DNA of 64,000 bases, from assembly GCA_964019135.1 (NCBI GenBank), contig OZ025252.1, positions 46,164,959 through 46,228,958 on the forward strand, in the 5' to 3' direction. Below are positions 1-64,000 of the stretch, piece after piece. A program made the position numbers and the translations under genes. Origin of the DNA: Arenicola marina (lineage: Eukaryota > Annelida > Polychaeta > Arenicolidae). The first letter of the stretch is position 1; every line of letters starts with the position of its first letter. Under the pieces are notes generated by a model, which searched no databases, was not told the DNA's origin, and saw only the letters and a program-made list of their open reading frames with translations.

Positions 1-248
1 GTTTCCAGAGGCGTCAAGCACGTCGGCGCATCCAGCAGCAGAATCGCTCCCAATGTGCGTCACAGTCTCAACAGCTGCATGCCATCACTACCAACAGTAG
101 TTACCCAGCATCACAACACACGCCGGGATTCAACGAATGTAAAGATATCATTCATGCCACAAAGGCCATGGAACCGATGTGGTCTGATTACTGCCAGGTT
201 CCAGCGATCGCCATCCCGGATGAATACCTTCACCACTTTTCTGTCTAA
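1..248 (+). CDS. FoxQ2-like forkhead protein, copy 0 (3' fragment, type A)
   Basis: Only the last 81 codons and the stop are in the window, beginning inside codon 284 at the end of the forkhead tail (FQRRQARRR). Ser300 (RSQC), Asn315, Gln322 and an intact C-terminus ending HHFSV match copies 7 and 22. The spacer that follows also matches theirs, so this is a type A copy. Truncation is by the window edge, not by mutation. Confidence 0.93.
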   Translation, partial: FQRRQARRRIQQQNRSQCASQSQQLHAITTNSSYPASQHTPGFNECKDIIHATKAMEPMWSDYCQVPAIAIPDEYLHHFSV

Positions 249-359
249 CTAATACAAGAAACTGGTTGTCCTGTGTATAATTTAGCAGTGATTGCCAAGA
301 GTTTGTGTAACATTGTATCGAATATTTCATAACATGCATTGTACATAAGATCATCAATC

Positions 360-365
360 AATAAA
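360..365 (+). terminator. Poly(A) signal AATAAA (copy 0; same offset in every unit)
   Basis: A canonical AATAAA starts 112 nt after the ancestral stop codon. The same hexamer is kept at the same offset in all 29 gene ends of the window, for example 2609-2614, 13847-13852 and 63309-63314. It predicts a 3' UTR of about 130-140 nt. Confidence 0.75.
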
Positions 366-707
366 AACATTATTTATGCACAATATACATGAATCCCCTC
401 ATTTTCTTCATCCAAATCCATATCATCCAACTCAGCATATATCGAGGAAAATGAAGTCAGTAAACTATAACTTAACGACTACGTCCAGCAAACGCCATTT
501 CAATCAGAAAGACTCCGTTCGATGTATGACAAAATGCCGTATACATTTAGAAAGAATTAGCATAGCGACTAATTACAGCTCAACACGCAAGCACAGATTC
601 TTATGCAGCGTTGTTGTACTCGAAAAACGCCACCGGGCTTCAAAAAGCGCTATATATGATCCCCAAATATGTGTGACACCATATATGCCACGCAAATAAA
701 TGTGCCT

Positions 708-843
708 TATGATATGCCGCTACAATGGTAGTATTACATTTGAGTCAATACTTTCGCCCACTTCGAGGAATTCTCACACGATCAATGTCATAGCTTGGAT
801 CAACACCATTCTTATTTCATGGTATTTGCATATGATATGCCGC
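708..843 (+). repeat. 13-nt direct repeat TATGATATGCCGC within the spacer
   Basis: TATGATATGCCGC occurs at 708-720 and again at 831-843 (123 nt apart). Both are followed by a related TAC...ATGGTA string. The pair is present in most spacers; spacer 14 has lost the first copy (ATG to ATC near 32182). It may be a relic of an old internal duplication or a paired binding site. Confidence 0.6.
824..831 (+). promoter_or_regulatory. Octamer (POU-type) motif ATTTGCAT
   Basis: An exact match to the octamer recognised by POU factors lies 576 nt upstream of the copy 1 ATG and recurs at about the same place in other units. An 8-mer can occur by chance, and conservation between near-identical copies is weak evidence, so function is only possible. 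Confidence 0.3.
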
Positions 844-1002
844 CTACGATTTCATGGTAATGTTCAACCTAATAAATTCAATATGAAACCAAACAGAGTT
901 TCCAAAATATGCGCCTTTTAGTCATATTTAATTTAGTCAACGGTTCTGTGGCAGGATTCTATGTCATCTGTTATATTGTTTTACAGCCCCAGTTACGGTT
1001 CA

Positions 1003-1034
1003 TCCGTTAGAGCGGAGACCCTTCGAATCCGTGC
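1003..1034 (+). other. tRNA-like / hairpin stretch, possible degenerate SINE relic
   Basis: TCCG-TTAGAG-CGGA (1003-1016) can form a 4-bp hairpin. GTTAGAGCG resembles the D-arm/A-box end of a tRNA, and TTCGAATCC (1022-1030) resembles the T-loop/B-box. The two boxes are far too close for an intact tRNA and the T-stem does not pair, so this is at most a collapsed tRNA-derived element. It is present in every unit. Confidence 0.25.
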
Positions 1035-3648: not shown

Positions 3649-4746
3649 ATGGCTCTTGAAGGATGTATGAGATCCCACAATTCGCAGAAGAGCGGTCACC
3701 ACGCACATGCTGAATATAGCTTGGAGTACTTGGAGGCGCACCTGACGCTATCTTCGGAGTTTGCTGACATTGATATAGACTTCTACATTGACAATATTGT
3801 TCACAGCTGTTGCGATCTCATCAATTTAGAGGTGCCTGATTGTCAGCTTTGTACCAGCTCAGAACTCAAGGCACTGGATCACCACCAGCCCAGCTCTACT
3901 GACATGGAAGACGATAAACTATCATTCGCTTCACCACTACACCCGAGTCCCCAATCGTCACCAGTGACGTCCCAACATACTCTGTACAACGTGGCGGAGC
4001 CTGATAATGCATCATATGTGGATACGAGTTTCTTGCTTATGGGAAACTGTTACAACCTGCCACAAGAAATAGCCACGCCTTGTCCAGGTCCCCACAACAA
4101 TTATTTCTTTGACAACATCAGCTGCTCTTGTCGAGTAGAGGCTCTGCAGATTGCAGAACAAGATGATTACATGACCGTTTCTAATGGTGATGATGACCAA
4201 ATCAAGACGGCAACGGTCAACACGTTGGCCATTCAGCAAAAGCCAACTGATTCATTCATTGCCATGATAGCTAAGGCCATTATGAGTACATCAGACGGTG
4301 AAATGCTTGTGGCTGATATCTATCAATGGATTCTGGACAATTATCCTTACTATCAGAAGACCTAGTGCGCCTGGAGGATCAGCGTTCGTCACAACCTTTC
4401 CGTCAACGAGTGTTTCGTCAAGGGGCAACGCAGCAGAAGAAATCGGGGTTTCTATTGGTCCATCCATCCACTATCTGTAGAAGATTTCACCAACGGTTGT
4501 TTCCAGAGGCGTCAAGCACATCGGCGCATCCAGCAGCAGAATCGCACCCAATGTGCGTCACAGTCTCAACAGCTGCATGCCATCACTACCAACAGTAGTT
4601 ACCCAGCATCACAACACACCCCGGGATTCAACGAATGTAAAGATATCATTCATGCCACAAAGGCCATGGAACCGATGTGGTCTGATTACTGCCAGGTTCC
4701 AGCGATCGCCATCCCGGATGAATACCTTCACCACTTTTCTGTCTAA
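3649..4746 (+). pseudogene. FoxQ2-like copy 2 (type C), nonsense codon in the forkhead domain
   Basis: The frame opens normally but codon 239 is TAG (4363-4365) where other copies have AAG (Lys239). The 238-residue product stops just before WRISVRHNLS, so it lacks the recognition helix and wings and could not bind DNA as a forkhead. The downstream sequence stays in frame and otherwise undamaged to the normal stop at 4746, so the lesion is recent. Type C marks: Asn49, Cys55, Thr126, Cys159, Ile185, Lys237, as in copies 9 and 24, neither of which has the stop. A truncated protein with the EH1-like N-terminus could still be made. Confidence 0.88.
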
Positions 4747-5895: not shown

Positions 5896-6993
5896 ATGGC
5901 TCTTGAAGGATGTATGAGATCCCACAATTCGCAGAAGAGCGGTCACCACGCACACGCTGAATATAGCTTGGAGTACTTGGAGGCGCACCTGACGCTATCT
6001 TCGGAGTTTGCTGACATTGATATAGACTTCTACATTGACAATATTGTTCACAGCTGTTGCGATCTCATCAATTTAGAGGTGCCTGATTGTCAGCTTTGTA
6101 CCAGCTCAGAACTCAAGGCACTGGATCACCACCAGCCCAGCTCTACTGACATGGAAGACGATAAACTATCATTCGCTTCACCACTACACCCGAGTCCCCA
6201 ATCGTCACCAGTGACGTCCCAACATACTCTGTACAACGTGGCGGAGCCTGATAATGCATCATATGTGGGTACGAGTTTTTTGCTTATGGGAAACTGTTAC
6301 AACCTTCCCCAAGAAGTAGCCACGCCTTGTCCAGGTCCCCACAACAATTATTTCTTTGACAACATCAGCTACTCTTGTCGAGTAGAGGCTCTGCAGATTG
6401 CAGAACAAGATGATTACATGACCGTTTCTAATGGTGATGATGACCAAACCAAGACGGCAACGGTCAACACGTTGGCCATTCAGCAAAAGCCAACTGATTC
6501 ATTCATTGCCATGATAGCTAAGGCCATTATGAGTACATCAGACGGTGAAATGCTTGTGGCTGATATCTATCAATGGATTCTGGACAATTATGCTTACTAT
6601 CAGACGACCAAGTGCGCCTGGAGGATCAGCGTTCGTCACAACCTTTCCGTCAACGAGTGTTTCGTCAAGGGGCAACGCAGCAGAAGAAATCGGGGTTTCT
6701 ATTGGTCCATTCATCCACTATCTGTAGAAGATTTCACCAACGGTTGTTTCCAGAGGCGTCAAGCACGTCGGCGCATCCAGCAGCAGAATCGCACCCAATG
6801 TGCGTCACAGTCTCAACAGCTGCATGCCATCACTACCGACAGTAGTTACCCAGCATCACAACACACCCCGGGATTCAACGAATGTAAAGATATCATTCAT
6901 GCCACAAAGGCCATGGAACCGATGTGGTCTGATTACTGCCAGGTTCCAGCGATCGCCATCCCGGATGAATACCTTCACCACTTTTCTGTCTAA
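5896..6993 (+). CDS. FoxQ2-like forkhead transcription factor, copy 3 (type D)
   Basis: Full 365 aa. Type D marks: Asn49, Cys55, Gly125-Thr126 (VGTSF), Val141, Ala233, Thr237, Asp315, with Gln322 and an intact C-terminus. It resembles the F copies but keeps the last seven residues, so it may represent the state before the F truncation. The closest partner is copy 25. With Asn49 the EH1-like motif reads FYIDNIV, closer to the FSIDNIL consensus than in copy 1. Confidence 0.92.
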   Translation: MALEGCMRSHNSQKSGHHAHAEYSLEYLEAHLTLSSEFADIDIDFYIDNIVHSCCDLINLEVPDCQLCTSSELKALDHHQPSSTDMEDDKLSFASPLHPSPQSSPVTSQHTLYNVAEPDNASYVGTSFLLMGNCYNLPQEVATPCPGPHNNYFFDNISYSCRVEALQIAEQDDYMTVSNGDDDQTKTATVNTLAIQQKPTDSFIAMIAKAIMSTSDGEMLVADIYQWILDNYAYYQTTKCAWRISVRHNLSVNECFVKGQRSRRNRGFYWSIHPLSVEDFTNGCFQRRQARRRIQQQNRTQCASQSQQLHAITTDSSYPASQHTPGFNECKDIIHATKAMEPMWSDYCQVPAIAIPDEYLHHFSV

Positions 6994-8141: not shown

Positions 8142-9239
8142 ATGGCTCTTGAAGGATGTATGAGATCCCACAATTCGCAGAAGAGCGGTCACCACGCACA
8201 TGCTGAATATAGCTTGGAGTACTTGGAGGCGCACCTGACGCTATCTTCGGAGTTTGCTGACATTGATATAGACTTCTACATTGACAATATTGTTCACAGC
8301 TGTTGGGATCTCATCAATTTAGAGGTGCCTGATTGTAAGCTTTTTACCAGCTCAGAACTCAAGGCACTGGATCACGACCAGCCCAGCTCTACTGACCTGG
8401 AAGACGATAAACTATCATTCGCTTCACCACTACACCCGAGTCCCCAATCGTCACCAGTGACGTCCCAACATACTCTGTACAACGTGGCGGAGCCTGATAA
8501 TGCATCATATGTGGATACGAGTTTCTTGCTTATGGGAAACTGTTACAACCTTCCACAAAGAATAGCCACGCCTTGTCCAGGTCCCCACAACAATTATTTC
8601 TTTGACAACATCAGCTACTCTTGTCGAGTAGAGGCTCTGCAGATTGCAGAACAAGATGATTACATGACCGTTTCTAATGGTGATGATGACCAAACCAAGA
8701 CGGCAACGGTCAACACGTTGGCCATTCAGCAAAAGCCAACTGATTCATTCATTGCCATGATAGCTAAGGCCATTATGAGTACATCAGACGGTGAAATGCT
8801 TGTGGCTGATATCTATCAATGGATTCTGGACAATTATGCTTACTATCAGACGACCAAGTGCGCCTGGAGGATCAGCGTTCGTCACAACCTTTCCGTCAAC
8901 GAGTGTTTCGTCAAGGGGCAACGCAGCAGAAGAAATCGGGGTTTCTATTGGTCCATCCATCCACTATCTGTAGAAGATTTCACCAACGGTTGTTTCCAGA
9001 GGCGTCAAGCACGTCGGCGCATCCAGCAGCAGAATCGCTCCCAATGTGCGTCACAGTCTCAACAGCTGCATGCCATCACTACCAACAGTAGTTACCCAGC
9101 ATCACAACACACGCCGGGATTCAACGAATGTAAAGATATCATTCATGCCACAAAGGCCATGGAACCGATGTGGTCTGATTACTGCCAGGTTCCAGCGATC
9201 GCCATCCCGGATGAATACCTTCACCACTTTTCTGTCTAA
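8142..9239 (+). CDS. FoxQ2-like forkhead transcription factor, copy 4 (type E)
   Basis: Full 365 aa, same protein as copies 10 and 26. Type E marks: Asn49, Trp55, Lys66, Phe68, Asp79, Leu86, Thr126, Arg140, Ala233, Thr237, Ser300. Arg140 (CAAAGAATA against CAAGAAATA) looks like a one-base slip plus a compensating slip rather than two independent substitutions. Confidence 0.92.
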   Translation: MALEGCMRSHNSQKSGHHAHAEYSLEYLEAHLTLSSEFADIDIDFYIDNIVHSCWDLINLEVPDCKLFTSSELKALDHDQPSSTDLEDDKLSFASPLHPSPQSSPVTSQHTLYNVAEPDNASYVDTSFLLMGNCYNLPQRIATPCPGPHNNYFFDNISYSCRVEALQIAEQDDYMTVSNGDDDQTKTATVNTLAIQQKPTDSFIAMIAKAIMSTSDGEMLVADIYQWILDNYAYYQTTKCAWRISVRHNLSVNECFVKGQRSRRNRGFYWSIHPLSVEDFTNGCFQRRQARRRIQQQNRSQCASQSQQLHAITTNSSYPASQHTPGFNECKDIIHATKAMEPMWSDYCQVPAIAIPDEYLHHFSV

Positions 9240-10388: not shown

Positions 10389-11465
10389 ATGGCTCTTGAA
10401 GGATGTATGAGATCCCACAATTCGCAGAAGAGCGGTCACCACGCACATGCTGAATATAGCTTGGAGTACTTGGAGGCGCACCTGACGCTATCTTCGGAGT
10501 TTGCTGACATTGATATAGACTTCTACATTGACAATATTGTTCACAGCTGTTGCGATCTCATCAATTTAGAGGTGCCTGATTGTCAGCTTTGTACCAGCTC
10601 AGAACTCAAGGCACTGGATCACCACCAGCCCAGCTCTACTGACATGGAAGACGATAAACTATCATTCGCTTCACCACTACACCCGAGTCCCCAATCGTCA
10701 CCAGTGACGTCCCAACATACTCTGTACAACGTGGCGGAGCCTGATAATGCATCATATGTGGGTACGAGTTTTTTGCTTATGGGAAACTGTTACAACCTTC
10801 CCCAAGAAGTAGCCACGCCTTGTCCAGGTCCCCACAACAATTATTTCTTTGACAACATCAGCTACTCTTGTCGAGTAGAGGCTCTGCAGATTGCAGAACA
10901 AGATGATTACATGACCGTTTCTAATGGTGATGATGACCAAACCAAGACGGCAACGGTCAACACGTTGGCCATTCAGCAAAAGCCAACTGATTCATTCATT
11001 GCCATGATAGCTAAGGCCATTATGAGTACATCAGACGGTGAAATGCTTGTGGCTGATATCTATCAATGGATTCTGGACAATTATCCTTACTATCAGACGA
11101 CCAAGTGCGCCTGGAGGATCAGCGTTCGTCACAACCTTTCCGTCAACGAGTGTTTCGTCAAGGGGCAACGCAGCAGAAGAAATCGGGGTTTCTATTGGTC
11201 CATTCATCCACTATCTGTAGAAGATTTCACCAACGGTTGTTTCCAGAGGCGTCAAGCACGTCGGCGCATCCAGCAGCAGAATCGCACCCAATGTGCGTCA
11301 CAGTCTCAACAGCTGCATGCCATCACTACCGACAGTAGTTACCCAGCATCACCACACACCCCGGGATTCAACGAATGTAAAGATATCATTCATGCCACAA
11401 AGGCCATGGAACCGATGTGGTCTGATTACTGCCAGGTTCCAGCGATCGCCATCCCGGATGAATAG
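10389..11465 (+). CDS. FoxQ2-like forkhead transcription factor, copy 5 (type F, C-terminus 7 aa short)
   Basis: Codon 359 is TAG (11463-11465) instead of TAC, giving 358 aa and dropping the terminal YLHHFSV. The forkhead domain is complete, so DNA binding should be unaffected. Marks: Asn49, Cys55, Gly125, Val141, Pro233, Thr237, Asp315, Pro322. Copies 13 and 14 share the truncation and Pro322; copies 11 and 27 share them plus a frameshift. Copy 5 differs from the other F copies by Pro233. Confidence 0.88.
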   Translation: MALEGCMRSHNSQKSGHHAHAEYSLEYLEAHLTLSSEFADIDIDFYIDNIVHSCCDLINLEVPDCQLCTSSELKALDHHQPSSTDMEDDKLSFASPLHPSPQSSPVTSQHTLYNVAEPDNASYVGTSFLLMGNCYNLPQEVATPCPGPHNNYFFDNISYSCRVEALQIAEQDDYMTVSNGDDDQTKTATVNTLAIQQKPTDSFIAMIAKAIMSTSDGEMLVADIYQWILDNYPYYQTTKCAWRISVRHNLSVNECFVKGQRSRRNRGFYWSIHPLSVEDFTNGCFQRRQARRRIQQQNRTQCASQSQQLHAITTDSSYPASPHTPGFNECKDIIHATKAMEPMWSDYCQVPAIAIPDE

Positions 11466-12637: not shown

Positions 12638-13735
12638 ATGGCTCTTGAAGGATGTATGAGATCCCACAATTCGCAGAAGAGCGGTCACCACGCACATGCT
12701 GAATATAGCTTGGAGTACTTGAATGCGCACCTGACGTTATCTTCGGAGTTTGCTGACATTGATATAGACTTCTACATTGACAATATTGTTCACAGCTGTT
12801 GGGATCTCATCAATTTAGAGGTGCCTGATTGTAATCTTTTTACCAGCTCAGAACTCAAGGCACTGGATCACGACCAACCCAGCTCTACTAACCTGGAAGA
12901 CGATAAACTATCATTCGCTTCACCACTACACCCGAGTCCCCAATCGTCACCAGTGACGTCCCAACATACTCTGTTCAACGTGGCGGAGCCTGATAATGCG
13001 TCATATGTGGATACGAGTTTCTTGCTTATGGGAAACTGTTACAACCTTCCACAAGAAATAGCCACGCCTTGTCCAGGTCCCCACAACAATTATTTCTTTG
13101 ACAACATCAGCCACTCTTGTCGAGTAGAGGCTCTGCAGATTGCAGAACAAGATGATTACATGACCGTTTCTAATGGTGACGATGACCAAATCAAGACGGC
13201 AGCGGTCAACACGTTGGCCATTCAGCAAAAGCCAACTGATTCATTCATTGCCATGATAGCTAAGGCCATTATGAGTACATCAGACGGTGAAATGCTTGTG
13301 GCTGATATCTATCAATGGATTCTGGACAATTATCCTTACTATCAGAAGACCAAGTGCGCCTGGAGGATCAGCGTTCGTCACAACCTTTCCGTCAACGAGT
13401 GTTTCGTCAAGGGGCAACGCAGCAGAAGAAATCGGGGTTTCTATTGGTCCATCCATCCACTATCTGTAGAAGATTTCACCAACGGTTGTTTCCAGAGGCG
13501 TCAAGCACGTCGGCGCATCCAGCAGCAGAATCGCACCCAATGTGCGTCACAGTCTCAACAGCTGCATGCCATCACTACCAACAGTAGTTACCCAGCATCA
13601 CAACACACCCCGGGATTCAACGAATGTAAAGATATCATTCATGCCACAAAGGCCATGGAACCGATGTGGTCTGATTACTCCCAGGTTCCAGCGATCGCCA
13701 TCCCGGATGAATACCTTCACCACTTTTCTGTCTAA
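12638..13735 (+). CDS. FoxQ2-like forkhead transcription factor, copy 6 (type H)
   Basis: Full 365 aa. Type H marks shared only with copy 21: Asn66 (DCNLF), Phe113, His159, Ala189 and Ser348. It shares Asn29 (LNAH, GAG to AAT) with the G copies 12, 15 and 28. Also Trp55, Asp79, Glu140, Ile185, Pro233, Lys237. Private Asn85 (STNLEDD) separates it from copy 21. Confidence 0.92.
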   Translation: MALEGCMRSHNSQKSGHHAHAEYSLEYLNAHLTLSSEFADIDIDFYIDNIVHSCWDLINLEVPDCNLFTSSELKALDHDQPSSTNLEDDKLSFASPLHPSPQSSPVTSQHTLFNVAEPDNASYVDTSFLLMGNCYNLPQEIATPCPGPHNNYFFDNISHSCRVEALQIAEQDDYMTVSNGDDDQIKTAAVNTLAIQQKPTDSFIAMIAKAIMSTSDGEMLVADIYQWILDNYPYYQKTKCAWRISVRHNLSVNECFVKGQRSRRNRGFYWSIHPLSVEDFTNGCFQRRQARRRIQQQNRTQCASQSQQLHAITTNSSYPASQHTPGFNECKDIIHATKAMEPMWSDYSQVPAIAIPDEYLHHFSV

Positions 13736-14886: not shown

Positions 14887-15984
14887 ATGGCTCTTGAAGG
14901 ATGTATGAGATCCCACAATTCGCAGAAGAGCGGTCACCACGCACATGCTGAATATAGCTTGGAGTACCTGGAGGCGCACCTGACGCTATCTTCGGAGTTT
15001 GCTGACATTGATATAGACTTCTACATTGACGATATTGTTCACAGCTGTTGGGATCTCATCAATTTAGAGGTGCCTGATTGTAAGCTTTTTACCAGCTCAG
15101 AACTCAAGGCACTGGATCACGACCAGCCCAGCTCTACTGACCTGGAAGACGATAAACTATCATTCGCTTCACCACTACACCCGAGTCCCCAATCGTCACC
15201 AGTGACGTCCCAACATACTCTGTACAACGTGGCGGAGCCTGATAATGCATCATATGTGGATACGAGTTTCTTGCTTATGGGAAACTGTTACAACCTTCCA
15301 CAAAGAATAGCCACGCCTTGTCCAGGTCCCCACAACAATTATTTCTTTGACAACATCAGCTACTCTTGTCGAGTAGAGGCTCTGCAGATTGCAGAACAAG
15401 ATGATTACATGACCGTTTCTAATGGTGATGATGACCAAACCAAGACGGCAACGGTCAACACGCTGGCCATTCAGCAAAAGCCAACTGATTCATTCATTGC
15501 CATGATAGCTAAGGCCATTATGAGTACATCAGACGGTGAAATGCTTGTGGCTGATATCTATCAATGGATTCTGGACAATTATGCTTACTATCAGACGACC
15601 AAGTGCGCCTGGAGGATCAGCGTTCGTCACAACCTTTCCGTCAACGAGTGTTTCGTCAAGGGACAACGCAGCAGAAGAAATCGGGGTTTCTATTGGTCCA
15701 TCCATCCACTATCTGTAGAAGATTTCACCAACGGTTGTTTCCAGAGGCGTCAAGCACGTCGGCGCATCCAGCAGCAGAATCGCTCCCAATGTGCGTCACA
15801 GTCTCAACAGCTGCATGCCATCACTACCAACAGTAGTTACCCAGCATCACAACACACGCCGGGATTCAACGAATGTAAAGATATCATTCATGCCACAAAG
15901 GCCATGGAACCGATGTGGTCTGATTACTGCCAGGTTCCAGCGATCGCCATCCCGGATGAATACCTTCACCACTTTTCTGTCTAA
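14887..15984 (+). CDS. FoxQ2-like forkhead transcription factor, copy 7 (type A)
   Basis: Full 365 aa. Type A marks: Asp49, Trp55, Lys66, Phe68, Asp79, Leu86, Arg140, Thr237, Ser300. Here residue 233 is Ala, while partner copy 22 has Pro. Both share a synonymous AAGGGACAA in the wing region not seen elsewhere. Expression may be reduced because of the TCTAAAA promoter. Confidence 0.92.
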   Translation: MALEGCMRSHNSQKSGHHAHAEYSLEYLEAHLTLSSEFADIDIDFYIDDIVHSCWDLINLEVPDCKLFTSSELKALDHDQPSSTDLEDDKLSFASPLHPSPQSSPVTSQHTLYNVAEPDNASYVDTSFLLMGNCYNLPQRIATPCPGPHNNYFFDNISYSCRVEALQIAEQDDYMTVSNGDDDQTKTATVNTLAIQQKPTDSFIAMIAKAIMSTSDGEMLVADIYQWILDNYAYYQTTKCAWRISVRHNLSVNECFVKGQRSRRNRGFYWSIHPLSVEDFTNGCFQRRQARRRIQQQNRSQCASQSQQLHAITTNSSYPASQHTPGFNECKDIIHATKAMEPMWSDYCQVPAIAIPDEYLHHFSV

Positions 15985-46361: not shown

Positions 46362-47459
46362 ATGGCTCTTGAAGGATGTATGAGATCCCACAATTCGCAG
46401 AAGAGCGGTCACCACGCACATGCTGAATATAGCTTGGAGTACTTGAATGCGCACCTGACGTTATCTTCGGAGTTTGCTGACATTGATATAGACTTCTACA
46501 TTGACAATATTGTTCACAGCTGTTGGGATCTCATCAATTTAGAGGTGCCTGATTGTAATCTTTTTACCAGCTCAGAACTCAAGGCACTGGATCACGACCA
46601 GCCCAGCTCTACTGACCTGGAAGACGATAAACTATCATTCGCTTCACCACTACACCCGAGTCCCCAATCGTCACCAGTGACGTCCCAACATACTCTGTTC
46701 AACGTGGCGGAGCCTGATAATGCGTCATATGTGGATACGAGTTTCTTGCTTATGGGAAACTGTTACAACCTTCCACAAGAAATAGCCACGCCTTGTCCAG
46801 GTCCCCACAACAATTATTTCTTTGACAACATCAGCCACTCTTGTCGAGTAGAGGCTCTGCAGATTGCAGAACAAGATGATTACATGACCGTTTCTAATGG
46901 TGACGATGACCAAATCAAGACGGCAGCGGTCAACACGTTGGCCATTCAGCAAAAGCCAACTGATTCATTCATTGCCATGATAGCTAAGGCCATTATGAGT
47001 ACATCAGACGGTGAAATGCTTGTGGCTGATATCTATCAATGGATTCTGGACAATTATCCTTACTATCAGAAGACCAAGTGCGCCTGGAGGATCAGCGTTC
47101 GTCACAACCTTTCCGTCAACGAGTGTTTCGTCAAGGGGCAACGCAGCAGAAGAAATCGGGGTTTCTATTGGTCCATCCATCCACTATCTGTAGAAGATTT
47201 CACCAACGGTTGTTTCCAGAGGCGTCAAGCACGTCGGCGCATCCAGCAGCAGAATCGCACCCAATGTGCGTCACAGTCTCAACAGCTGCATGCCATCACT
47301 ACCAACAGTAGTTACCCAGCATCACAACACACCCCGGGATTCAACGAATGTAAAGATATCATTCATGCCACAAAGGCCATGGAACCGATGTGGTCTGATT
47401 ACTCCCAGGTTCCAGCGATCGCCATCCCGGATGAATACCTTCACCACTTTTCTGTCTAA
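46362..47459 (+). CDS. FoxQ2-like forkhead transcription factor, copy 21 (type H)
   Basis: Full 365 aa. Matches copy 6 (Asn29, Asn66, Phe113, His159, Ala189, Ser348) except Asp85 in place of Asn85. It lies exactly 33,724 bp after copy 6. Confidence 0.92.
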   Translation: MALEGCMRSHNSQKSGHHAHAEYSLEYLNAHLTLSSEFADIDIDFYIDNIVHSCWDLINLEVPDCNLFTSSELKALDHDQPSSTDLEDDKLSFASPLHPSPQSSPVTSQHTLFNVAEPDNASYVDTSFLLMGNCYNLPQEIATPCPGPHNNYFFDNISHSCRVEALQIAEQDDYMTVSNGDDDQIKTAAVNTLAIQQKPTDSFIAMIAKAIMSTSDGEMLVADIYQWILDNYPYYQKTKCAWRISVRHNLSVNECFVKGQRSRRNRGFYWSIHPLSVEDFTNGCFQRRQARRRIQQQNRTQCASQSQQLHAITTNSSYPASQHTPGFNECKDIIHATKAMEPMWSDYSQVPAIAIPDEYLHHFSV

Positions 47460-48610: not shown

Positions 48611-49708
48611 ATGGCTCTTGAAGGATGTATGAGATCCCACAATTCGCAGAAGAGCGGTCACCACGCACATGCTGAATATAGCTTGGAGTACCTGGAGGCG
48701 CACCTGACGCTATCTTCGGAGTTTGCTGACATTGATATAGACTTCTACATTGACGATATTGTTCACAGCTGTTGGGATCTCATCAATTTAGAGGTGCCTG
48801 ATTGTAAGCTTTTTACCAGCTCAGAACTCAAGGCACTGGATCACGACCAGCCCAGCTCTACTGACCTGGAAGACGATAAACTATCATTCGCTTCACCACT
48901 ACACCCGAGTCCCCAATCGTCACCAGTGACGTCCCAACATACTCTGTACAACGTGGCGGAGCCTGATAATGCATCATATGTGGATACGAGTTTCTTGCTT
49001 ATGGGAAACTGTTACAACCTTCCACAAAGAATAGCCACGCCTTGTCCAGGTCCCCACAACAATTATTTCTTTGACAACATCAGCTACTCTTGTCGAGTAG
49101 AGGCTCTGCAGATTGCAGAACAAGATGATTACATGACCGTTTCTAATGGTGATGATGACCAAACCAAGACGGCAACGGTCAACACGCTGGCCATTCAGCA
49201 AAAGCCAACTGATTCATTCATTGCCATGATAGCTAAGGCCATTATGAGTACATCAGACGGTGAAATGCTTGTGGCTGATATCTATCAATGGATTCTGGAC
49301 AATTATCCTTACTATCAGACGACCAAGTGCGCCTGGAGGATCAGCGTTCGTCACAACCTTTCCGTCAACGAGTGTTTCGTCAAGGGACAACGCAGCAGAA
49401 GAAATCGGGGTTTCTATTGGTCCATCCATCCACTATCTGTAGAAGATTTCACCAACGGTTGTTTCCAGAGGCGTCAAGCACGTCGGCGCATCCAGCAGCA
49501 GAATCGCTCCCAATGTGCGTCACAGTCTCAACAGCTGCATGCCATCACTACCAACAGTAGTTACCCAGCATCACAACACACGCCGGGATTCAACGAATGT
49601 AAAGATATCATTCATGCCACAAAGGCCATGGAACCGATGTGGTCTGATTACTGCCAGGTTCCAGCGATCGCCATCCCGGATGAATACCTTCACCACTTTT
49701 CTGTCTAA
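48611..49708 (+). CDS. FoxQ2-like forkhead transcription factor, copy 22 (type A)
   Basis: Full 365 aa. As copy 7 (Asp49, Trp55, Lys66, Arg140, Ser300, synonymous AAGGGACAA) but Pro233 instead of Ala233. This is a single difference in helix 2 between otherwise matched partners. Confidence 0.92.
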   Translation: MALEGCMRSHNSQKSGHHAHAEYSLEYLEAHLTLSSEFADIDIDFYIDDIVHSCWDLINLEVPDCKLFTSSELKALDHDQPSSTDLEDDKLSFASPLHPSPQSSPVTSQHTLYNVAEPDNASYVDTSFLLMGNCYNLPQRIATPCPGPHNNYFFDNISYSCRVEALQIAEQDDYMTVSNGDDDQTKTATVNTLAIQQKPTDSFIAMIAKAIMSTSDGEMLVADIYQWILDNYPYYQTTKCAWRISVRHNLSVNECFVKGQRSRRNRGFYWSIHPLSVEDFTNGCFQRRQARRRIQQQNRSQCASQSQQLHAITTNSSYPASQHTPGFNECKDIIHATKAMEPMWSDYCQVPAIAIPDEYLHHFSV

Positions 49709-50859: not shown

Positions 50860-51957
50860 ATGGCTCTTGAAGGATGTATGAGATCCCACAATTCGCAGAA
50901 GAGCGGTCACCACGCACATGCTGAATATAGCTTGGAGTACTTGGAGGCGCACCTGACGCTATCTTCGGAGTTTGCTGACATTGATATAGACTTCTACATT
51001 GACGATATTGTTCACAGCTGTTGCGATCTCATCAATTTAGAGGTGCCTGATTGTCAGCTTTGTACCAGCTCAGAACTCAAGGCACTGGATCACCACCAGC
51101 CCAGCTCTACTGACATGGAAGACGATAAACTATCATTCGCTTCACCACTACACCCGAGTCCCCAATCGTCACCAGTGACGTCCCAACATACTCTGTACAA
51201 CGTGGCGGAGCCTGATAATGCATCATATGTGGATCCGAGTTTCTTGCTTATGGGAAACTGTTACAACCTTCCACAAGAAATAGCCACGCCTTGTCCAGGT
51301 CCCCACAACAATTATTTCTTTGACAACATCAGCTACTCTTGTCGAGTAGAGGCTCTGCAGATTGCAGAACAAGATGATTACATGACCGTTTCTAATGGTG
51401 ATGATGACCAAACCAAGACGGCAACGGTCAACACGTTGGCCATTCAGCAAAAGCCAACTGATTCATTCATTGCCATGATAGCTAAGGCCATTATGAGTAC
51501 ATCAGACGGTGAAATGCTTGTGGCTGATATCTATCAATGGATTCTGGACAATTATCCTTACTATCAGACGACCAAGTGCGCCTGGAGGATCAGCGTTCGT
51601 CACAACCTTTCCGTCAACGAGTGTTTCGTCAAGGGGCAACGCAGCAGAAGAAATCGGGGTTTCTATTGGTCCATCCATCCACTATCTGTAGAAGATTTCA
51701 CCAACGGTTGTTTCCAGAGGCGTCAAGCACGTCGGCGCATCCAGCAGCAGAATCGCACCCAATGTGCGTCACAGTCTCAACAGCTGCATGCCATCACTAC
51801 CAACAGTAGTTACCCAGCATCACAACACACCCCGGGATTCAACGAATGTAAAGATATCATTCATGCCACAAAGGCCATGGAACCGATGTGGTCTGATTAC
51901 TGCCAGGTTCCAGCGATCGCCATCCCGGATGAATACCTTCACCACTTTTCTGTCTAA
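50860..51957 (+). CDS. FoxQ2-like forkhead transcription factor, copy 23 (type B)
   Basis: Full 365 aa with no amino-acid difference from copy 8 (Asp49, Cys55, Pro126, Pro233, Thr237, Asn298, Ala303). Confidence 0.92.
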   Translation: MALEGCMRSHNSQKSGHHAHAEYSLEYLEAHLTLSSEFADIDIDFYIDDIVHSCCDLINLEVPDCQLCTSSELKALDHHQPSSTDMEDDKLSFASPLHPSPQSSPVTSQHTLYNVAEPDNASYVDPSFLLMGNCYNLPQEIATPCPGPHNNYFFDNISYSCRVEALQIAEQDDYMTVSNGDDDQTKTATVNTLAIQQKPTDSFIAMIAKAIMSTSDGEMLVADIYQWILDNYPYYQTTKCAWRISVRHNLSVNECFVKGQRSRRNRGFYWSIHPLSVEDFTNGCFQRRQARRRIQQQNRTQCASQSQQLHAITTNSSYPASQHTPGFNECKDIIHATKAMEPMWSDYCQVPAIAIPDEYLHHFSV

Positions 51958-53108: not shown

Positions 53109-54206
53109 ATGGCTCTTGAAGGATGTATGAGATCCCACAATTCGCAGAAGAGCGGTCACCACGCACATGCTGAATATAGCTTGGAGTACTTGGAGGCGCA
53201 CCTGACGCTATCTTCGGAGTTTGCTGACATTGATATAGACTTCTACATTGACAATATTGTTCACAGCTGTTGCGATCTCATCAATTTAGAGGTGCCTGAT
53301 TGTCAGCTTTGTACCAGCTCAGAACTCAAGGCACTGGATCACCACCAGCCCAGCTCTACTGACATGGAAGACGATAAACTATCATTCGCTTCACCACTAC
53401 ACCCGAGTCCCCAATCGTCACCAGTGACGTCCCAACATACTCTGTACAACGTGGCGGAGCCTGATAATGCATCATATGTGGATACGAGTTTCTTGCTTAT
53501 GGGAAACTGTTACAACCTTCCACAAGAAATAGCCACGCCTTGTCCAGGTCCCCACAACAATTATTTCTTTGACAACATCAGCTGCTCTTGTCGAGTAGAG
53601 GCTCTGCAGATTGCAGAACAAGATGATTACATGACCGTTTCTAATGGTGATGATGACCAAATCAAGACGGCAACGGTCAACACGTTGGCCATTCAGCAAA
53701 AGCCAACTGATTCATTCATTGCCATGATAGCTAAGGCCATTATGAGTACATCAGACGGTGAAATGCTTGTGGCTGATATCTATCAATGGATTCTGGACAA
53801 TTATCCTTACTATCAGAAGACCAAGTGCGCCTGGAGGATCAGCGTTCGTCACAACCTTTCCGTCAACGAGTGTTTCGTCAAGGGGCAACGCAGCAGAAGA
53901 AATCGGGGTTTCTATTGGTCCATCCATCCACTATCTGTAGAAGATTTCACCAACGGTTGTTTCCAGAGGCGTCAAGCACGTCGGCGCATCCAGCAGCAGA
54001 ATCGCACCCAATGTGCGTCACAGTCTCAACAGCTGCATGCCATCACTACCAACAGTAGTTACCCAGCATCACAACACACCCCGGGATTCAACGAATGTAA
54101 AGATATCATTCATGCCACAAAGGCCATGGAACCGATGTGGTCTGATTACTGCCAGGTTCCAGCGATCGCCATCCCGGATGAATACCTTCACCACTTTTCT
54201 GTCTAA
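53109..54206 (+). CDS. FoxQ2-like forkhead transcription factor, copy 24 (type C)
   Basis: Full 365 aa. Cys159, Ile185, Pro233 and Lys237 as in copies 2 and 9. It has Asp173, where copy 9 has Tyr, and Lys239, where copy 2 has a stop, so it is the cleanest example of type C. Confidence 0.92.
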   Translation: MALEGCMRSHNSQKSGHHAHAEYSLEYLEAHLTLSSEFADIDIDFYIDNIVHSCCDLINLEVPDCQLCTSSELKALDHHQPSSTDMEDDKLSFASPLHPSPQSSPVTSQHTLYNVAEPDNASYVDTSFLLMGNCYNLPQEIATPCPGPHNNYFFDNISCSCRVEALQIAEQDDYMTVSNGDDDQIKTATVNTLAIQQKPTDSFIAMIAKAIMSTSDGEMLVADIYQWILDNYPYYQKTKCAWRISVRHNLSVNECFVKGQRSRRNRGFYWSIHPLSVEDFTNGCFQRRQARRRIQQQNRTQCASQSQQLHAITTNSSYPASQHTPGFNECKDIIHATKAMEPMWSDYCQVPAIAIPDEYLHHFSV

Positions 54207-55355: not shown

Positions 55356-56453
55356 ATGGCTCTTGAAGGATGTATGAGATCCCACAATTCGCAGAAGAGC
55401 GGTCACCACGCACATGCTGAATATAGCTTGGAGTACTTGGAGGCGCACCTGACGCTATCTTCGGAGTTTGCTGACATTGATATAGACTTCTACATTGACA
55501 ATATTGTTCACAGCTGTTGCGATCTCATCAATTTAGAGGTGCCTGATTGTCAGCTTTGTACCAGCTCAGAACTCAAGGCACTGGATCACCACCAGCCCAG
55601 CTCTACTGACATGGAAGACGATAAACTATCATTCGCTTCACCACTACACCCGAGTCCCCAATCGTCACCAGTGACGTCCCAACATACTCTGTACAACGTG
55701 GCGGAGCCTGATAATGCATCATATGTGGGTACGAGTTTTTTGCTTATGGGAAACTGTTACAACCTTCCCCAAGAAGTAGCCACGCCTTGTCCAGGTCCCC
55801 ACAACAATTATTTCTTTGACAACATCAGCTACTCTTGTCGAGTAGAGGCTCTGCAGATTGCAGAACAAGATGATTACATGACCGTTTCTAATGGTGATGA
55901 TGACCAAACCAAGACGGCAACGGTCAACACGTTGGCCATTCAGCAAAAGCCAACTGATTCATTCATTGCCATGATAGCTAAGGCCATTATGAGTACATCA
56001 GACGGTGAAATGCTTGTGGCTGATATCTATCAATGGATTCTGGACAATTATGCTTACTATCAGACGACCAAGTGCGCCTGGAGGATCAGCGTTCGTCACA
56101 ACCTTTCCGTCAACGAGTGTTTCGTCAAGGGGCAACGCAGCAGAAGAAATCGGGGTTTCTATTGGTCCATTCATCCACTTTCTGTAGACGATTTCACCAA
56201 CGGTTGTTTCCAGAGGCGTCAAGCACGTCGGCGCATCCAGCAGCAGAATCGCACCCAATGTGCGTCACAGTCTCAACAGCTGCATGCCATCACTACCGAC
56301 AGTAGTTACCCAGCATCACAACACACCCCGGGATTCAACGAATGTAAAGATATCATTCATGCCACAAAGGCCATGGAACCGATGTGGTCTGATTACTGCC
56401 AGGTTCCAGCGATCGCCATCCCGGATGAATACCTTCACCACTTTTCTGTCTAA
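55356..56453 (+). CDS. FoxQ2-like forkhead transcription factor, copy 25 (type D)
   Basis: Full 365 aa. As copy 3 (Gly125, Val141, Ala233, Thr237, Asp315, Gln322) with one private change, Glu278 to Asp (SVDDF), in the otherwise invariant FoxQ2 tail. It is the D unit that block 2 lacks. Confidence 0.92.
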   Translation: MALEGCMRSHNSQKSGHHAHAEYSLEYLEAHLTLSSEFADIDIDFYIDNIVHSCCDLINLEVPDCQLCTSSELKALDHHQPSSTDMEDDKLSFASPLHPSPQSSPVTSQHTLYNVAEPDNASYVGTSFLLMGNCYNLPQEVATPCPGPHNNYFFDNISYSCRVEALQIAEQDDYMTVSNGDDDQTKTATVNTLAIQQKPTDSFIAMIAKAIMSTSDGEMLVADIYQWILDNYAYYQTTKCAWRISVRHNLSVNECFVKGQRSRRNRGFYWSIHPLSVDDFTNGCFQRRQARRRIQQQNRTQCASQSQQLHAITTDSSYPASQHTPGFNECKDIIHATKAMEPMWSDYCQVPAIAIPDEYLHHFSV

Positions 56454-57604: not shown

Positions 57605-58702
57605 ATGGCTCTTGAAGGATGTATGAGATCCCACAATTCGCAGAAGAGCGGTCACCACGCACATGCTGAATATAGCTTGGAGTACTTGGAGGCGCACCTG
57701 ACGCTATCTTCGGAGTTTGCTGACATTGATATAGACTTCTACATTGACAATATTGTTCACAGCTGTTGGGATCTCATCAATTTAGAGGTGCCTGATTGTA
57801 AGCTTTTTACCAGCTCAGAACTCAAGGCACTGGATCACGACCAGCCCAGCTCTACTGACCTGGAAGACGATAAACTATCATTCGCTTCACCACTACACCC
57901 GAGTCCCCAATCGTCACCAGTGACGTCCCAACATACTCTGTACAACGTGGCGGAGCCTGATAATGCATCATATGTGGATACGAGTTTCTTGCTTATGGGA
58001 AACTGTTACAACCTTCCACAAAGAATAGCCACGCCTTGTCCAGGTCCCCACAACAATTATTTCTTTGACAACATCAGCTACTCTTGTCGAGTAGAGGCTC
58101 TGCAGATTGCAGAACAAGATGATTACATGACCGTTTCTAATGGTGATGATGACCAAACCAAGACGGCAACGGTCAACACGTTGGCCATTCAGCAAAAGCC
58201 AACTGATTCATTCATTGCCATGATAGCTAAGGCCATTATGAGTACATCAGACGGTGAAATGCTTGTGGCTGATATCTATCAATGGATTCTGGACAATTAT
58301 GCTTACTATCAGACGACCAAGTGCGCCTGGAGGATCAGCGTTCGTCACAACCTTTCCGTCAACGAGTGTTTCGTCAAGGGGCAACGCAGCAGAAGAAATC
58401 GGGGTTTCTATTGGTCCATCCATCCACTATCTGTAGAAGATTTCACCAACGGTTGTTTCCAGAGGCGTCAAGCACGTCGGCGCATCCAGCAGCAGAATCG
58501 CTCCCAATGTGCGTCACAGTCTCAACAGCTGCATGCCATCACTACCAACAGTAGTTACCCAGCATCACAACACACGCCGGGATTCAACGAATGTAAAGAT
58601 ATCATTCATGCCACAAAGGCCATGGAACCGATGTGGTCTGATTACTGCCAGGTTCCAGCGATCGCCATCCCGGATGAATACCTTCACCACTTTTCTGTCT
58701 AA
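57605..58702 (+). CDS. FoxQ2-like forkhead transcription factor, copy 26 (type E)
   Basis: Full 365 aa, same protein as copies 4 and 10 (Asn49, Trp55, Lys66, Arg140, Ala233, Ser300). It lies 35,971 bp after copy 10. Confidence 0.92.
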   Translation: MALEGCMRSHNSQKSGHHAHAEYSLEYLEAHLTLSSEFADIDIDFYIDNIVHSCWDLINLEVPDCKLFTSSELKALDHDQPSSTDLEDDKLSFASPLHPSPQSSPVTSQHTLYNVAEPDNASYVDTSFLLMGNCYNLPQRIATPCPGPHNNYFFDNISYSCRVEALQIAEQDDYMTVSNGDDDQTKTATVNTLAIQQKPTDSFIAMIAKAIMSTSDGEMLVADIYQWILDNYAYYQTTKCAWRISVRHNLSVNECFVKGQRSRRNRGFYWSIHPLSVEDFTNGCFQRRQARRRIQQQNRSQCASQSQQLHAITTNSSYPASQHTPGFNECKDIIHATKAMEPMWSDYCQVPAIAIPDEYLHHFSV

Positions 58703-59851: not shown

Positions 59852-60927
59852 ATGGCTCTTGAAGGATGTATGAGATCCCACAATTCGCAGAAGAGCGGTC
59901 ACCACGCACATGCTGAATATAGCTTGGAGTACTTGGAGGCGCACCTGACGCTATCTTCGGAGTTTGCTGACATTGATATAGACTTCTACATTGACAATAT
60001 TGTTCACAGCTGTTGCGATCTCATCAATTTAGAGGTGCCTGATTGTCAGCTTTGTACCAGCTCAGAACTCAAGGCACTGGATCACCACCAGCCCAGCTCT
60101 ACTGACATGGAAGACGATAAACTATCATTCGCTTCACCACTACACCCGAGTCCCCAATCGTCACCAGTGACGTCCCAACATACTCTGTACAACGTGGCGG
60201 AGCCTGATAATGCATCATATGTGGGTACGAGTTTTTTGCTTATGGGAAACTGTTACAACCTTCCCCAAGAAGTAGCCACGCCTTGTCCAGGTCCCCACAA
60301 CAATTATTTCTTTGACAACATCAGCTACTCTTGTGGAGTAGAGGCTCTGCAGATTGCAGAACAAGATGATTACATGACCGTTTCTAATGGTGATGATGAC
60401 CAAACCAAGACGGCAACGGTCAACACGTTGGCCATTCAGCAAAAGCCAACTGATTCATTCATTGCCATGATAGCTAAGGCCATTATGAGTACATCAGACG
60501 GTGAAATGCTTGTGGCTGATATCTATCAATGGATTCTGGACAATTATGCTTACTATCAGACGACCAAGTGCGCCTGGAGGATCAGCGTTCGTCACAACCT
60601 TTCCGTCAACGAGTGTTCGTCAAGGGGCAACGCAGCAGAAGAAATCGGGGTTTCTATTGGTCCATTCATCCACTATCTGTAGAAGATTTCACCAACGGTT
60701 GTTTCCCGAGGCGTCAAGCACGTCGGCGCATCCAGCAGCAGAATCGCACCCAATGTGCGTCACAGTCTCAACAGCTGCATGCCATCACTACCGACAGTAG
60801 TTACCCAGCATCACCACACACCCCGGGATTCAACGAATGTAAAGATATCATTCATGCCACAAAGGCCATGGAACCGATGTGGTCTGATTACTGCCAGGTT
60901 CCAGCGATCGCCATCCCGGATGAATAG
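59852..60927 (+). pseudogene. FoxQ2-like copy 27 (type F), same 1-nt deletion as copy 11
   Basis: Same missing T after Cys255, giving a 276-residue product that stops at 60680-60682. The original frame stays open to the F-type TAG at 60925-60927. Q286P and Pro322 are shared with copy 11. It differs by Gly162 (GGA at 60335-60337), otherwise known only in J copies 17 and 20, suggesting a short conversion patch or recurrent mutation. Confidence 0.88.
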
Positions 60928-60948
60928 CTTCACCACTTTTCTGTCTAA

Positions 60949-62099
60949 CTAATACAAGAAACTGGTTGTCGTGTGTATAATTTAGCAGTGATTGGCAACA
61001 GTTTGTGTAACATTGTATCGAATATTTCATAACATGCATTGTACATAAGATCATCAATCAATAAAAACATTATTTATGCACAATATACATGAATCCCTTC
61101 ATTCTCTTCGTCCAAATCCATATCATCCAACTCGGCATATATCGAGGAAAATGAAGTCAGTAAACTATAACTTAACGACTACGTCCAGCAAACGCCATTT
61201 CAATCAAAAAGGCTCCGTTCGATCTATGACGAAATGCCGTATACATTTAGTAAGAATTAGCATAGCGACTGAATACAGCTCAACACGCAAGCACAGATTC
61301 TTATGCAGCGTTGTTGTACTCGAAAAACGCCACAGGGCTTCAAAAGGCGTTATATATGATCCCCAAATATGTGGGACACCATTTATGCCACGCAAATAAA
61401 TATGCCGTATGATATGCCGCTACAATGGTAGTCTAACATTTGAGTCAATACTTTCGCCGACTTCGAGGAATTCGCACACGATCAATGTCATAGCTTTGAT
61501 CAACACCATTCTTATTTCACGGTATTTGCATATGATATGCCGCCAACGATTTCATGGCAATGTTCACCCTAATAAATTCAATATGAAACCAAATAGAGTT
61601 TCCAAAATATGCGCCTTTTAGTCATATTTAATTTAGTCAACGGTTCTGTGGCAGGATTCTATGTCATCTGTTATATTGTTTTACATCCCCAGTTACGGTT
61701 CATCCGTTAGAGCGGAAACCCTTCGAATCCGTGCTGTAGGCAAATGTCATATGCCACTGTTATAACTAATCATGTCGTCCATCAAATTTGTGCTACACGT
61801 GGTCTTTATACTATTGCAATTAATGTGAGGCATTGAGCATCATTCGATTGCTTGCTGTCACCAACACCTCAAAATACTCAGATGTCAGATGTTAATCAAT
61901 TGATGTCATCACCTGGCCATATTAAACGTTTATCGGAATGTTTCAGAAGTTAATTGCAATTACATTAAATTGACACGAAAAGTGAAGTATAAAATGATCT
62001 GCTCCGTCTAGTTCATCATCATTCGATGTCAAGCACTGCCATTGTGAAGGGCATTAGAATACTTTATCGGCTGTCGATATCAAGTTAAGTAGCATAGAA
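60949..62099 (+). other. Spacer 27
   Basis: No gene. Poly(A) signal at 61060-61065. 3' UTR variant GTCGTG; beta 5' half with GCGACTGAATACAG as in spacer 11. Promoter half haplotype ii. Confidence 0.75.
61988..62024 (+). promoter_or_regulatory. Core promoter, copy 28
   Basis: TATAAAA at 61988-61994, TCATTC at 62019-62024. Haplotype ii. Confidence 0.65.
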
Positions 62100-63197
62100 A
62101 TGGCTCTTGAAGGATGTATGAGATCCCACAATTCGCAGAAGAGCGGTCACCACGCACATGCTGAATATAGCTTGGAGTACTTGAATGCGCACCTGACGTT
62201 ATCTTCGGAGTTTGCTGACATTGATATAGACTTCTACATTGACAATATTGTTCACAGCTGTTGGGATCTCATCAATTTAGAGGTGCCTGATTGTAAGCTT
62301 TTTACCAGCTCAGAACTCAAGGCACTGGATCACGACCAGCCCAGCTCTACTGACCTGGAAGACGATAAACTATCATTCGCTTCACCACTACACCCGAGTC
62401 CCCAATCGTCACCAGTGACGTCCCAACATACTCTGTACAACGTGGCGGAGCCTGATAATGCATCATATGTGGATACGAGTTTCTTGCTTATGGGAAACTG
62501 TTACAACCTTCCACAAAGAATAGCCACGCCTTGTCCAGGTCCCCACAACAATTATTTCTTTGACAACATCAGCTACTCTTGTCGAGTAGAGGCTCTGCAG
62601 ATTGCAGAACAAGATGATTACATGACCGTTTCTAATGGTGATGATGACCAAACCAAGACGGCAACGGTCAACACGTTGGCCATTCAGCAAAAGCCAACTG
62701 ATTCATTCATTGCCATGATAGCTAAGGCCATTATGAGTACATCAGACGGTGAAATGCTTGTGGCTGATATCTATCAATGGATTCTGGACAATTATGCTTA
62801 CTATCAGACGACCAAGTGCGCCTGGAGGATCAGCGTTCGTCACAACCTTTCCGTCAACGAGTGTTTCGTCAAGGGGCAACGCAGCAGAAGAAATCGGGGT
62901 TTCTATTGGTCCATCCATCCACTATCTGTAGAAGATTTCACCAACGGTTGTTTCCAGAGGCGTCAAGCACGTCGGCGCATCCAGCAGCAGAATCGCTCCC
63001 AATGTGCGTCACAGTCTCAACAGCTGCATGCCATCACTACCAACAGTAGTTACCCAGCATCACAACACACGCCGGGATTCAACGAATGTAAAGATATCAT
63101 TCATGCCACAAAGGCCATGGAACCGATGTGGTCTGATTACTGCCAGGTTCCAGCGATCGCCATCCCGGATGAATACCTTCACCACTTTTCTGTCTAA
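62100..63197 (+). CDS. FoxQ2-like forkhead transcription factor, copy 28 (type G)
   Basis: Full 365 aa, same protein as copies 12 and 15 (Asn29, Trp55, Lys66, Arg140, Ala233, Ser300). Last complete gene in the window. Confidence 0.92.
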   Translation: MALEGCMRSHNSQKSGHHAHAEYSLEYLNAHLTLSSEFADIDIDFYIDNIVHSCWDLINLEVPDCKLFTSSELKALDHDQPSSTDLEDDKLSFASPLHPSPQSSPVTSQHTLYNVAEPDNASYVDTSFLLMGNCYNLPQRIATPCPGPHNNYFFDNISYSCRVEALQIAEQDDYMTVSNGDDDQTKTATVNTLAIQQKPTDSFIAMIAKAIMSTSDGEMLVADIYQWILDNYAYYQTTKCAWRISVRHNLSVNECFVKGQRSRRNRGFYWSIHPLSVEDFTNGCFQRRQARRRIQQQNRSQCASQSQQLHAITTNSSYPASQHTPGFNECKDIIHATKAMEPMWSDYCQVPAIAIPDEYLHHFSV

Positions 63198-64000
63198 CTA
63201 ATACAAGAAACTGGTTGTCCTGTGTATAATTTAGCAGTGATTGCCAAGAGTTTGTGTAACATTGTATCGAATATTTCATAACATGCATTGTACATAAGAT
63301 CATCAATCAATAAAAACATTATTTATGCACAATATACATGAATCCTTTCATTCTCTTTGTCCAAATCCATATCATCCAACTCGGCATATATCGAGGAAAA
63401 TGAAGTCAGTAAACTATAACTTAACGACTACGTCCAGCAAACGCCATTTCAATCAAAAAGGCTCCGTTCGATCTATGACGAAATGCCGTATACATTTAGT
63501 AAGAATTAGCATAGCGACTATATACAGCTCAACACGCAAGCACAGATTCTTATGCAGCGTTGTTGTACTCGAAAAACGCCACAGGGCTTCAAAAGGCGTT
63601 ATATATGATCCCCAAATATGTGGGACACCATTTATGCCACGCAAATAAATATGCCGTATGATATGCCGCTACAATGGTAGTATTACATTTGAGTCAATAC
63701 TTTCGCCGACTTCGAGGAATTCGCACACGATCAATGTCATAGCTGTGATCAACACCATTCTTATTTCACGGTATTTGCATATGATATGCCGCCAACGATT
63801 TCATGGTAATGTTCACCCTAATAAATTCAATATGAAACCAAATAGAGTTTCCAAAATATGCGCCTTTTAGTCATATTTAATTTAGTCAACGGTTCTGTGG
63901 CAGGATTCTGTCATCTGTTATATTGTTTTACATCTCCAGTTACGGTTCATCCGTTAGAGCGGAAACCCTTCGAATCCGTGCTGTAGGCAAATGTCATATG
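63198..64000 (+). other. Spacer 28 (cut by the window edge)
   Basis: No gene. Poly(A) signal at 63309-63314. Gamma 5' half, then AGCTGTGATC and the 2-nt-deleted GATTCTGTC, as seen upstream of D and F copies. The window ends about 345 nt before the expected ATG of copy 29, predicted to be type F by comparison with spacer 12. Confidence 0.75.

Follow-up and report, generated by a model that had tools for sequence, protein, structure and literature searches.

The usual view of developmental transcription factors is that they are sensitive to dosage. Gene macrosatellites are known as a kind, with DUX4/D4Z4 and hbox12/pmar1 as comparable cases. DUX4, a mammalian homeobox retrogene, sits in every tandem D4Z4 macrosatellite unit and is described as contributing to zygote genome activation (PMC12376486). 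In sea urchins, hbox12/pmar1/micro1 are reported as multicopy transcription factors of the early embryo, with copy numbers of 6-22 between individuals by quantitative polymerase chain reaction and with hbox12-a as a repressor (PMC5370098), and a similar description exists for phb genes arranged in tandem in a brittle star (PMC11310086). The primate ELOA3 retrogene cluster consists of tandem transcription-regulator genes, for which concerted evolution and variable copy number are reported (PMC10664989). Among forkhead genes, FoxQ2 expansions are described in Spiralia, including 11 foxQ2 genes with staggered apical expression in Owenia (PMC9539403) and 13 in Paraescarpia, the largest count found in the literature examined (PMC12828049). 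Here we analysed a 64,000-bp stretch of the genome of the polychaete Arenicola marina (the window; C5:46164959-46228958, C5 being the 49.9-Mb contig OZ025252.1), which is the interior of a tandem array of an intronless forkhead gene, and searched the whole genome (867 Mb in 762 contigs, given our own C numbers) for its extent and relatives.

The gene is self-contained in a 2.25-kb unit and stands in one head-to-tail array of 84 starts at a single place on one contig (C5:46128133-46321246, 193 kb), all on the + strand. Copies were counted across the genome with a 45-base pattern from the start of the open reading frame (ORF), allowing at most 3 mismatches; because the pattern sits at the ORF start, copies lacking a start are left uncounted. 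The pattern gave no match on the other strand or elsewhere in the genome, and neither did the reversed-pattern control. An original prediction, made from the window alone, had placed the true copy number above the window count, and the genome-wide number is three times as high. The C5 array consists of homogenised gene units of kilobase size, head to tail and in tens of copies, as gene macrosatellites do. Contig C19 carries a sister array with 103 copies. No forkhead macrosatellite was found in the titles and abstract openings of the literature searched, a scope outside which most subscription papers lie.

The two arrays resemble the spiralian expansions, as those are described, in being probably FoxQ2 or near it, of clade I, made of lineage-specific duplicates and fast-evolving, and in carrying a putative N-terminal EH1-like motif in some members (PMC9539403, PMC12828049). 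Unlike those expansions, reported with at most 13 paralogs, they are regularly ordered head to tail and reach 84 and 103 copies, and in one of them (C5) the asparagine of the recognition helix is replaced. DUX4/D4Z4 is similar in having a transcription factor gene in every unit (PMC12376486), but the gene here is a forkhead, and each unit has its own poly(A) signal. The likeness to hbox12/pmar1/micro1 and phb is that of a multicopy regulator; unlike the units here, those genes are described as having two exons, as often divergent with some head-to-tail pairs and as spread over scaffolds, and they are not forkheads (PMC5370098, PMC11310086). ELOA3 is an elongation factor rather than a sequence-specific DNA-binding regulator, unlike a forkhead (PMC10664989).

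Within the window, an ORF scan found 28 forkhead starts (1400, 3649 and so on to 62100), every one on the + strand. They delimit 27 complete ATG-to-ATG units of 2246-2249 bp between two partial ones: positions 1-1399 are the tail of a further copy, u00 (ORF end, 3' part and spacer to the next ATG), and the unit of u28 is cut at the window edge (64000) with its ORF still complete. Units in the window are 98.1% identical on average (pairwise range 95.9-100%), and 22 of the 28 copies hold an intronless forkhead frame of 365 amino acids (aa). No N occurs in the window, and Tandem Repeats Finder, with a longest period of 500, listed nothing in it. The original prediction had read from the same letters an intronless forkhead gene with at least 28 complete tandem copies, at least 22 of them full length (the number is exactly 22), repeating every ~2.25 kb, and all of this agrees with the scan. 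It had also seen no other gene in the array, and no further ATG-started ORF of at least 150 aa exists on either strand of the window.

The intact frames, all on the + strand, are u01 (1400-2497), u03 (5896-6993), u04 (8142-9239), u06 (12638-13735), u07 (14887-15984), u08 (17136-18233, the query for searches), u09 (19385-20482), u10 (21634-22731), u12 (26129-27226), u15 (32872-33969), u16 (35121-36218), u17 (37368-38465), u18 (39617-40714), u19 (41866-42963), u20 (44113-45210), u21 (46362-47459), u22 (48611-49708), u23 (50860-51957), u24 (53109-54206), u25 (55356-56453), u26 (57605-58702) and u28 (62100-63197). On the same strand, three copies stop 7 codons early, at 358 aa (u05, 10389-11465; u13, 28376-29452; u14, 30623-31699). 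Two have a common 1-bp deletion by which the frame is lost within the forkhead domain, at 276 aa (u11, 23881-24711; u27, 59852-60682), and u02 (3649-4365) has a nonsense codon at 239, also within the domain, leaving 238 aa. Ahead of its domain, copy u18 has private changes, 10 of them altering an amino acid and 2 silent, which are perhaps a tract converted from a diverged copy or a sign of relaxed constraint.

Each unit was also predicted to have its own promoter and poly(A) signal. AATAAA lies 110-111 bp past the stop position in 28/28 window copies (2609-2614 in copy 1), and the TATA-like box TATAAAA precedes the ATG in 24 of the 28, at 112 bp in 23 (1288-1294 in copy 1) and at 109 bp in 1. 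Forkhead sites are not enriched in the spacer (3 RYAAAYA versus 3.3 expected), and autoregulation is therefore unsupported. A 107-aa ORF occupies the spacer on the same strand, at unit position 1226-1546 from the ATG and directly past the poly(A) signal (for example window 18361-18681); versions of it also occur in C5 copies outside the window, and it is probably a product of chance.

The search for the array ends, which the original prediction had proposed, approached both. The left degenerate edge lies at ~C5:46126537, where a truncated copy (91.6% and 76.7% identity) stands ahead of the first full unit, which starts at 46128133. The last start is at 46321202, and a probe from 46326000 contained no unit. 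Of the 3-kb probes placed around the window, 6 out of 20 match the unit, the left-edge probe (L011) only partly. Spacings between C5 starts are 2246-2250 bp in 67 of 83 cases. Contrary to the predicted homogeneity, the array is not uniform throughout: in the right third, spacings are irregular (~1.5, 2.1, 2.2, 2.6 or 2.8 kb, with a single one of 8.7 kb). Near the right end, copies carry deletions and recur as ~4.9-kb pairs.

The C5 array expanded by block duplication and has mosaic variants and decayed edges. Units u00-u05 are 99.73-99.96% identical to u22-u27 (offset 22; u00 is a partial unit), u06-u08 are 99.82-100% identical to u21-u23 (offset 15), and u10-u12 are 99.96-100% identical to u26-u28 (offset 16; u28 partial), while the 28 neighbouring unit pairs average 98.02%, with none at 99.5%. 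At offset 22, most copies are thus closer to each other (~99.7%) than adjacent copies are. Of 5995 informative-site pairs, 1562 conflict in the four-gamete test, with a minimum recombination count (Rm) of 15. This pattern fits unequal crossing-over of blocks together with gene conversion, the mechanism we infer from it, and the edge copies presumably escape homogenisation.

The encoded protein matches the Pfam Forkhead family (PF00250) at residues 197-279 (E=2.8e-27, 95.1 bits against a cut-off of 27), and with alignments the domain of copy 1 extends over residues 197-294 (1988-2281). Among solved structures, the protein matched 46 distinct PDB sequences, nearly all named forkhead, with FOXA3 as the best (89.5 bits); FoxQ2 is absent from the molecule names of these matches. 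Its single NCBIfam match is far under the cut-off, and structure predictions made without an alignment were poor (mean predicted local distance difference test of 36.6 and 46.9). When viral and prokaryotic contigs were scanned, 12 and 14 pattern stretches turned up but no relative, and hence, within close similarity, no sign of viral or bacterial origin.

In 28/28 window copies the recognition helix reads WRISVRHNLS, with isoleucine (Ile) for the conserved asparagine (Asn) and the histidine (His) kept; by alignment, the Ile codon of copy 1 is residue 244 (2129-2131). Ile was also found in 13/13 motif matches from C5 stretches outside the window, edge copies included, with a motif that left the Asn position free and with stretch-less edge copies not counted. 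All 41 of the 41 C5 copies whose helix was read therefore have Ile. By comparison, Asn is present in the aligned copies of C19 (3), C9 (4) and the C8 array (3), and one further C19 copy (L034) has glutamine for His, the next contact residue. The core contacts of the recognition helix are described as strictly conserved, the Asn equivalent bonding in bidentate fashion to an adenine that is invariant in the forkhead site (PMC7062188). A single forkhead gene at C2:50013965-50014210 has glycine at this position, so Asn is not absolutely conserved in this genome. The loss leaves membership of the forkhead-domain family intact; standard DNA reading by the C5 protein is doubtful.

The class of the C5 gene is probably FoxQ2, to judge from a tree built on 23 forkhead domains, all from this genome, from which L048 and further array copies were left out and whose midpoint root serves for drawing. 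The C5 and C19 arrays are sisters there (support 99/94), and both belong to a set of 13 rows that is split (100/99) from the remaining 10. The remainder of the 13-row group consists of the C9 cluster, a C11 gene and the genes at C8:14.6 Mb and C8:23.155 Mb. In alignments, wing 1 of C5 falls two residues short of its FOXA counterpart, which we take to be a FoxQ2 mark; the C2:50.0-Mb gene, outside the 13-row group, is also short in wing 1. A motif that we presume to be EH1-like, FYIDDIV or FYIDEIV, lies near the N-terminus of 3/3 C5, 0/3 C19 and 0/4 C9 proteins in a regex scan without statistics (FYIDDIV at residues 45-51 of copy 1, 1532-1552), with FYIDNIV in its place in many other copies. In the C8:23.155-Mb gene, wing 1 is short and the C-terminus carries an EH1-like motif, FDMESLL, and a C-terminal EH-i-like motif is reported to mark the FoxQ2-C group, named FoxQ2II (PMC12828049; see also PMC9539403), a type described as lost in eleutherozoan echinoderms (PMC12828049). 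The mitochondrial COX1, on C762, has 13 in-frame TGA codons, read as tryptophan, and encodes the conserved lysine of NHK by AAA, in keeping with the invertebrate code and at odds with the echinoderm one. With a FoxQ2-C-type gene in the genome as well, this speaks against a sea-urchin origin and tentatively for a spiralian. Clade I forkhead genes as a rule have no intron in the domain (PMC9539403), and the continuous 365-aa frames, as read from genomic DNA, conform to this.

The FoxQ2 label is given because the relatives in the same genome look like FoxQ2 by hallmarks that we presume to be diagnostic. The predicted FoxQ2-like class is supported by the grouping in the tree and by the short wing 1, and the name itself leans on those hallmarks. 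It is improbable that the gene is instead a forkhead of another class, orphan or fast-evolving: FOXA3 is the best solved-structure match, and long branches, flagged by the tree program, come together at the C5 array and in other places, but the split of 13 versus 10 rows puts C5 beside the C8:23.155-Mb gene.

The genome contains further forkhead arrays. In a genome-wide Forkhead search, 150 of 327 candidates were scored, the C5 array lying outside the scored set, and these comprise at least 95 on C19, at least 35 in C8 at 23.52-23.72 Mb, at least 9 on C9 and at least 11 elsewhere. The C19 array has 103 pattern matches, all on the - strand, from C19:12958462 to ~13217000, with a period of ~2488 bp and a FoxQ2-like gene whose open frame runs to 491 aa; 84 of the 95 scored frames reach at least 485 aa. 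One C5 unit compared with one C19 stretch showed no DNA similarity outside the domain. On C8, a FoxAB-like array (C8:23522776-23717230) has at least 35 matches, 33 on the - and 2 on the + strand, and mixes open frames of ~390 aa with stop-bearing copies. In the tree it is sister (98/91) to a gene at C8:32.04 Mb, which we take to be FoxAB-like. By pattern match, nine FoxQ2-like genes on both strands form a loose cluster over 0.52 Mb at C9:29058952-29579123.

Two other families were compared. A T-box search of the genome, with all 27 candidates scored, gave 17 matches and no array. The homeobox search, with 150 of 768 candidates scored, gave at least 113 matches, including an irregular two-strand cluster of at least 27 at C17:21614466-21826408 (8/27 with stops) and two groups of 5 near-equal homeobox-type matches at near-regular distances (C14:3089904-3126338 and C19:17348663-17369212). 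Across the three families, with homeobox scored in part, regular arrays of tens of copies were found only in forkheads.

We tentatively favour the reading that the arrays are gene macrosatellites that may be kept because they raise the dosage of a fast forkhead regulator without introns. In this reading the array would evolve via unequal crossing-over and gene conversion, and a short intronless gene with many templates available at once would yield a fast, high burst of the regulator. To judge from other early regulators with many copies, the early embryo or the germ line would be the most plausible place for that burst. The Asn-less C5 protein would then probably have altered or relaxed DNA specificity, or compete with its relatives, rather than act as a standard FoxQ2. 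We lean to this dosage reading because the 84 starts lie on one strand at one place with 22/28 window frames intact, because the TATA-like box (24/28) and AATAAA (28/28) stand at fixed places, and because a sister array of 103 copies, mostly with long frames, exists on C19. Further grounds are that T-box genes form no array in this genome, and the block duplication, four-gamete conflicts and degenerate edges together with the sister relation of C5 and C19. The domain also appears constrained over the longer term and its variants fall under the spacer rate. Among the C5 copies, domain variants number 11 versus 27.0 expected at the spacer rate (p=0.0004; pseudocounts somewhat inflate this expectation). 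Between one C5 and one C19 domain, the proportion of nonsynonymous differences (pN) is 0.27 and that of synonymous differences (pS) is saturated at 1.04, which implies longer-term constraint.

Several observations weigh against it. Six of the 28 window copies are shortened or broken. Counted as single motifs across the spacer, TATAAAA and AATAAA occur no more often than chance would have it, so their fixed position alone is suggestive. Homeobox genes are expanded too, and amplification is therefore not special to forkheads; and the loss of Asn argues against a conventional transcription factor. The 28 C5 copies hold 48 amino-acid, 2 nonsense and 20 silent variants (silent expectation 16.4 by the spacer spectrum), which is no departure from neutrality (p=0.19; p=0.11 for the silent/amino-acid balance without u18). 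The domain variants are not skewed to silent ones (4/11, p=0.22), and five C19 copies have 15 silent and 56 amino-acid changes (pN/pS 1.11). Variation is also low in the C-terminal part without the domain (9 versus 19.3 expected) and not in the N-terminal part (50 versus 53.4), and the low values of the domain and the C-terminal part could come from homogenisation. Selection on single C5 copies is thus weak or undetectable. We read this as longer-term constraint on the domain with single copies only weakly constrained, as expected under redundancy; the C5 copies may also have had a wholly neutral recent history.

Such neutrality would suit an array in which a forkhead copy was caught in runaway unequal crossing-over, its frames kept by homogenisation and its copy number functionless. 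We regard this as a real possibility, if a lesser one than dosage: substitutions within the C5 array and among the five C19 copies are near neutral, some window copies are broken, the conserved Asn is replaced in every C5 copy read, and edge copies decay. It accounts less well for amplification in two sister genes on two contigs, for the absence of a T-box array, and for a C5 domain that varies less than the spacer. Moreover, a FoxAB-like gene is amplified too, and its copies are constrained (8 copies of the C8 array with 39 silent and 63 amino-acid changes, pN/pS 0.46, p=0.0001).

Ampliconic sex-chromosome genes are an example of conflict between drivers and suppressors. A similar race between amplified, fast-evolving germ-line regulators, C5 versus C19, with C5 as a competitor impaired in base reading, would agree with sister arrays on two contigs, with the lack of DNA similarity outside the domain, with amino-acid change that is near neutral or faster, and with an Asn replaced in C5 but kept in the three aligned C19 copies. 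No spacer sequence common to a C5 unit and a C19 stretch suggests cross-regulation, however, and we consider genetic conflict unlikely. Equally unlikely is a broader reading, by which one animal lineage would have repeatedly made forkhead regulators into rDNA-like arrays for dosage (one FoxAB-like and two FoxQ2-like, each on a contig of its own), with the Asn-less C5 protein as a competitor or re-targeted reader opposing the 103-copy C19 array in an arms race or a dosage balance. That the array is an assembly artefact, with haplotype copies joined end to end or contig ends repeated, is very improbable. Identity does reach 100% at long range (u08 with u23, u10 with u26, the partial u28 with u12), but near-identical pairs occur at many offsets (including 2, 6, 7, 15, 16 and 22 units), copies have private variants, the edges are degenerate in an ordered way with irregular spacings at the right end, and the array, without N in the window, lies at one genome place only.

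Sister arrays of 84 and 103 copies and a FoxAB-like array in one genome are a natural experiment on macrosatellite origin, and they bear on why such genes become macrosatellites, whether through early-embryo dosage, drift or conflict. With a copy number far above what is usual for such genes, extreme dosage of such a regulator, or evolutionary conflict over it, should be testable here, and the replaced DNA-reading residue common to all C5 copies read makes a direct binding test possible. As a separate observation, a GGTTAGAATGGA-like motif is repeated at the start of contig C1 (C1:1-2000), where a ~390-bp segment also occurs twice, as judged by eye.

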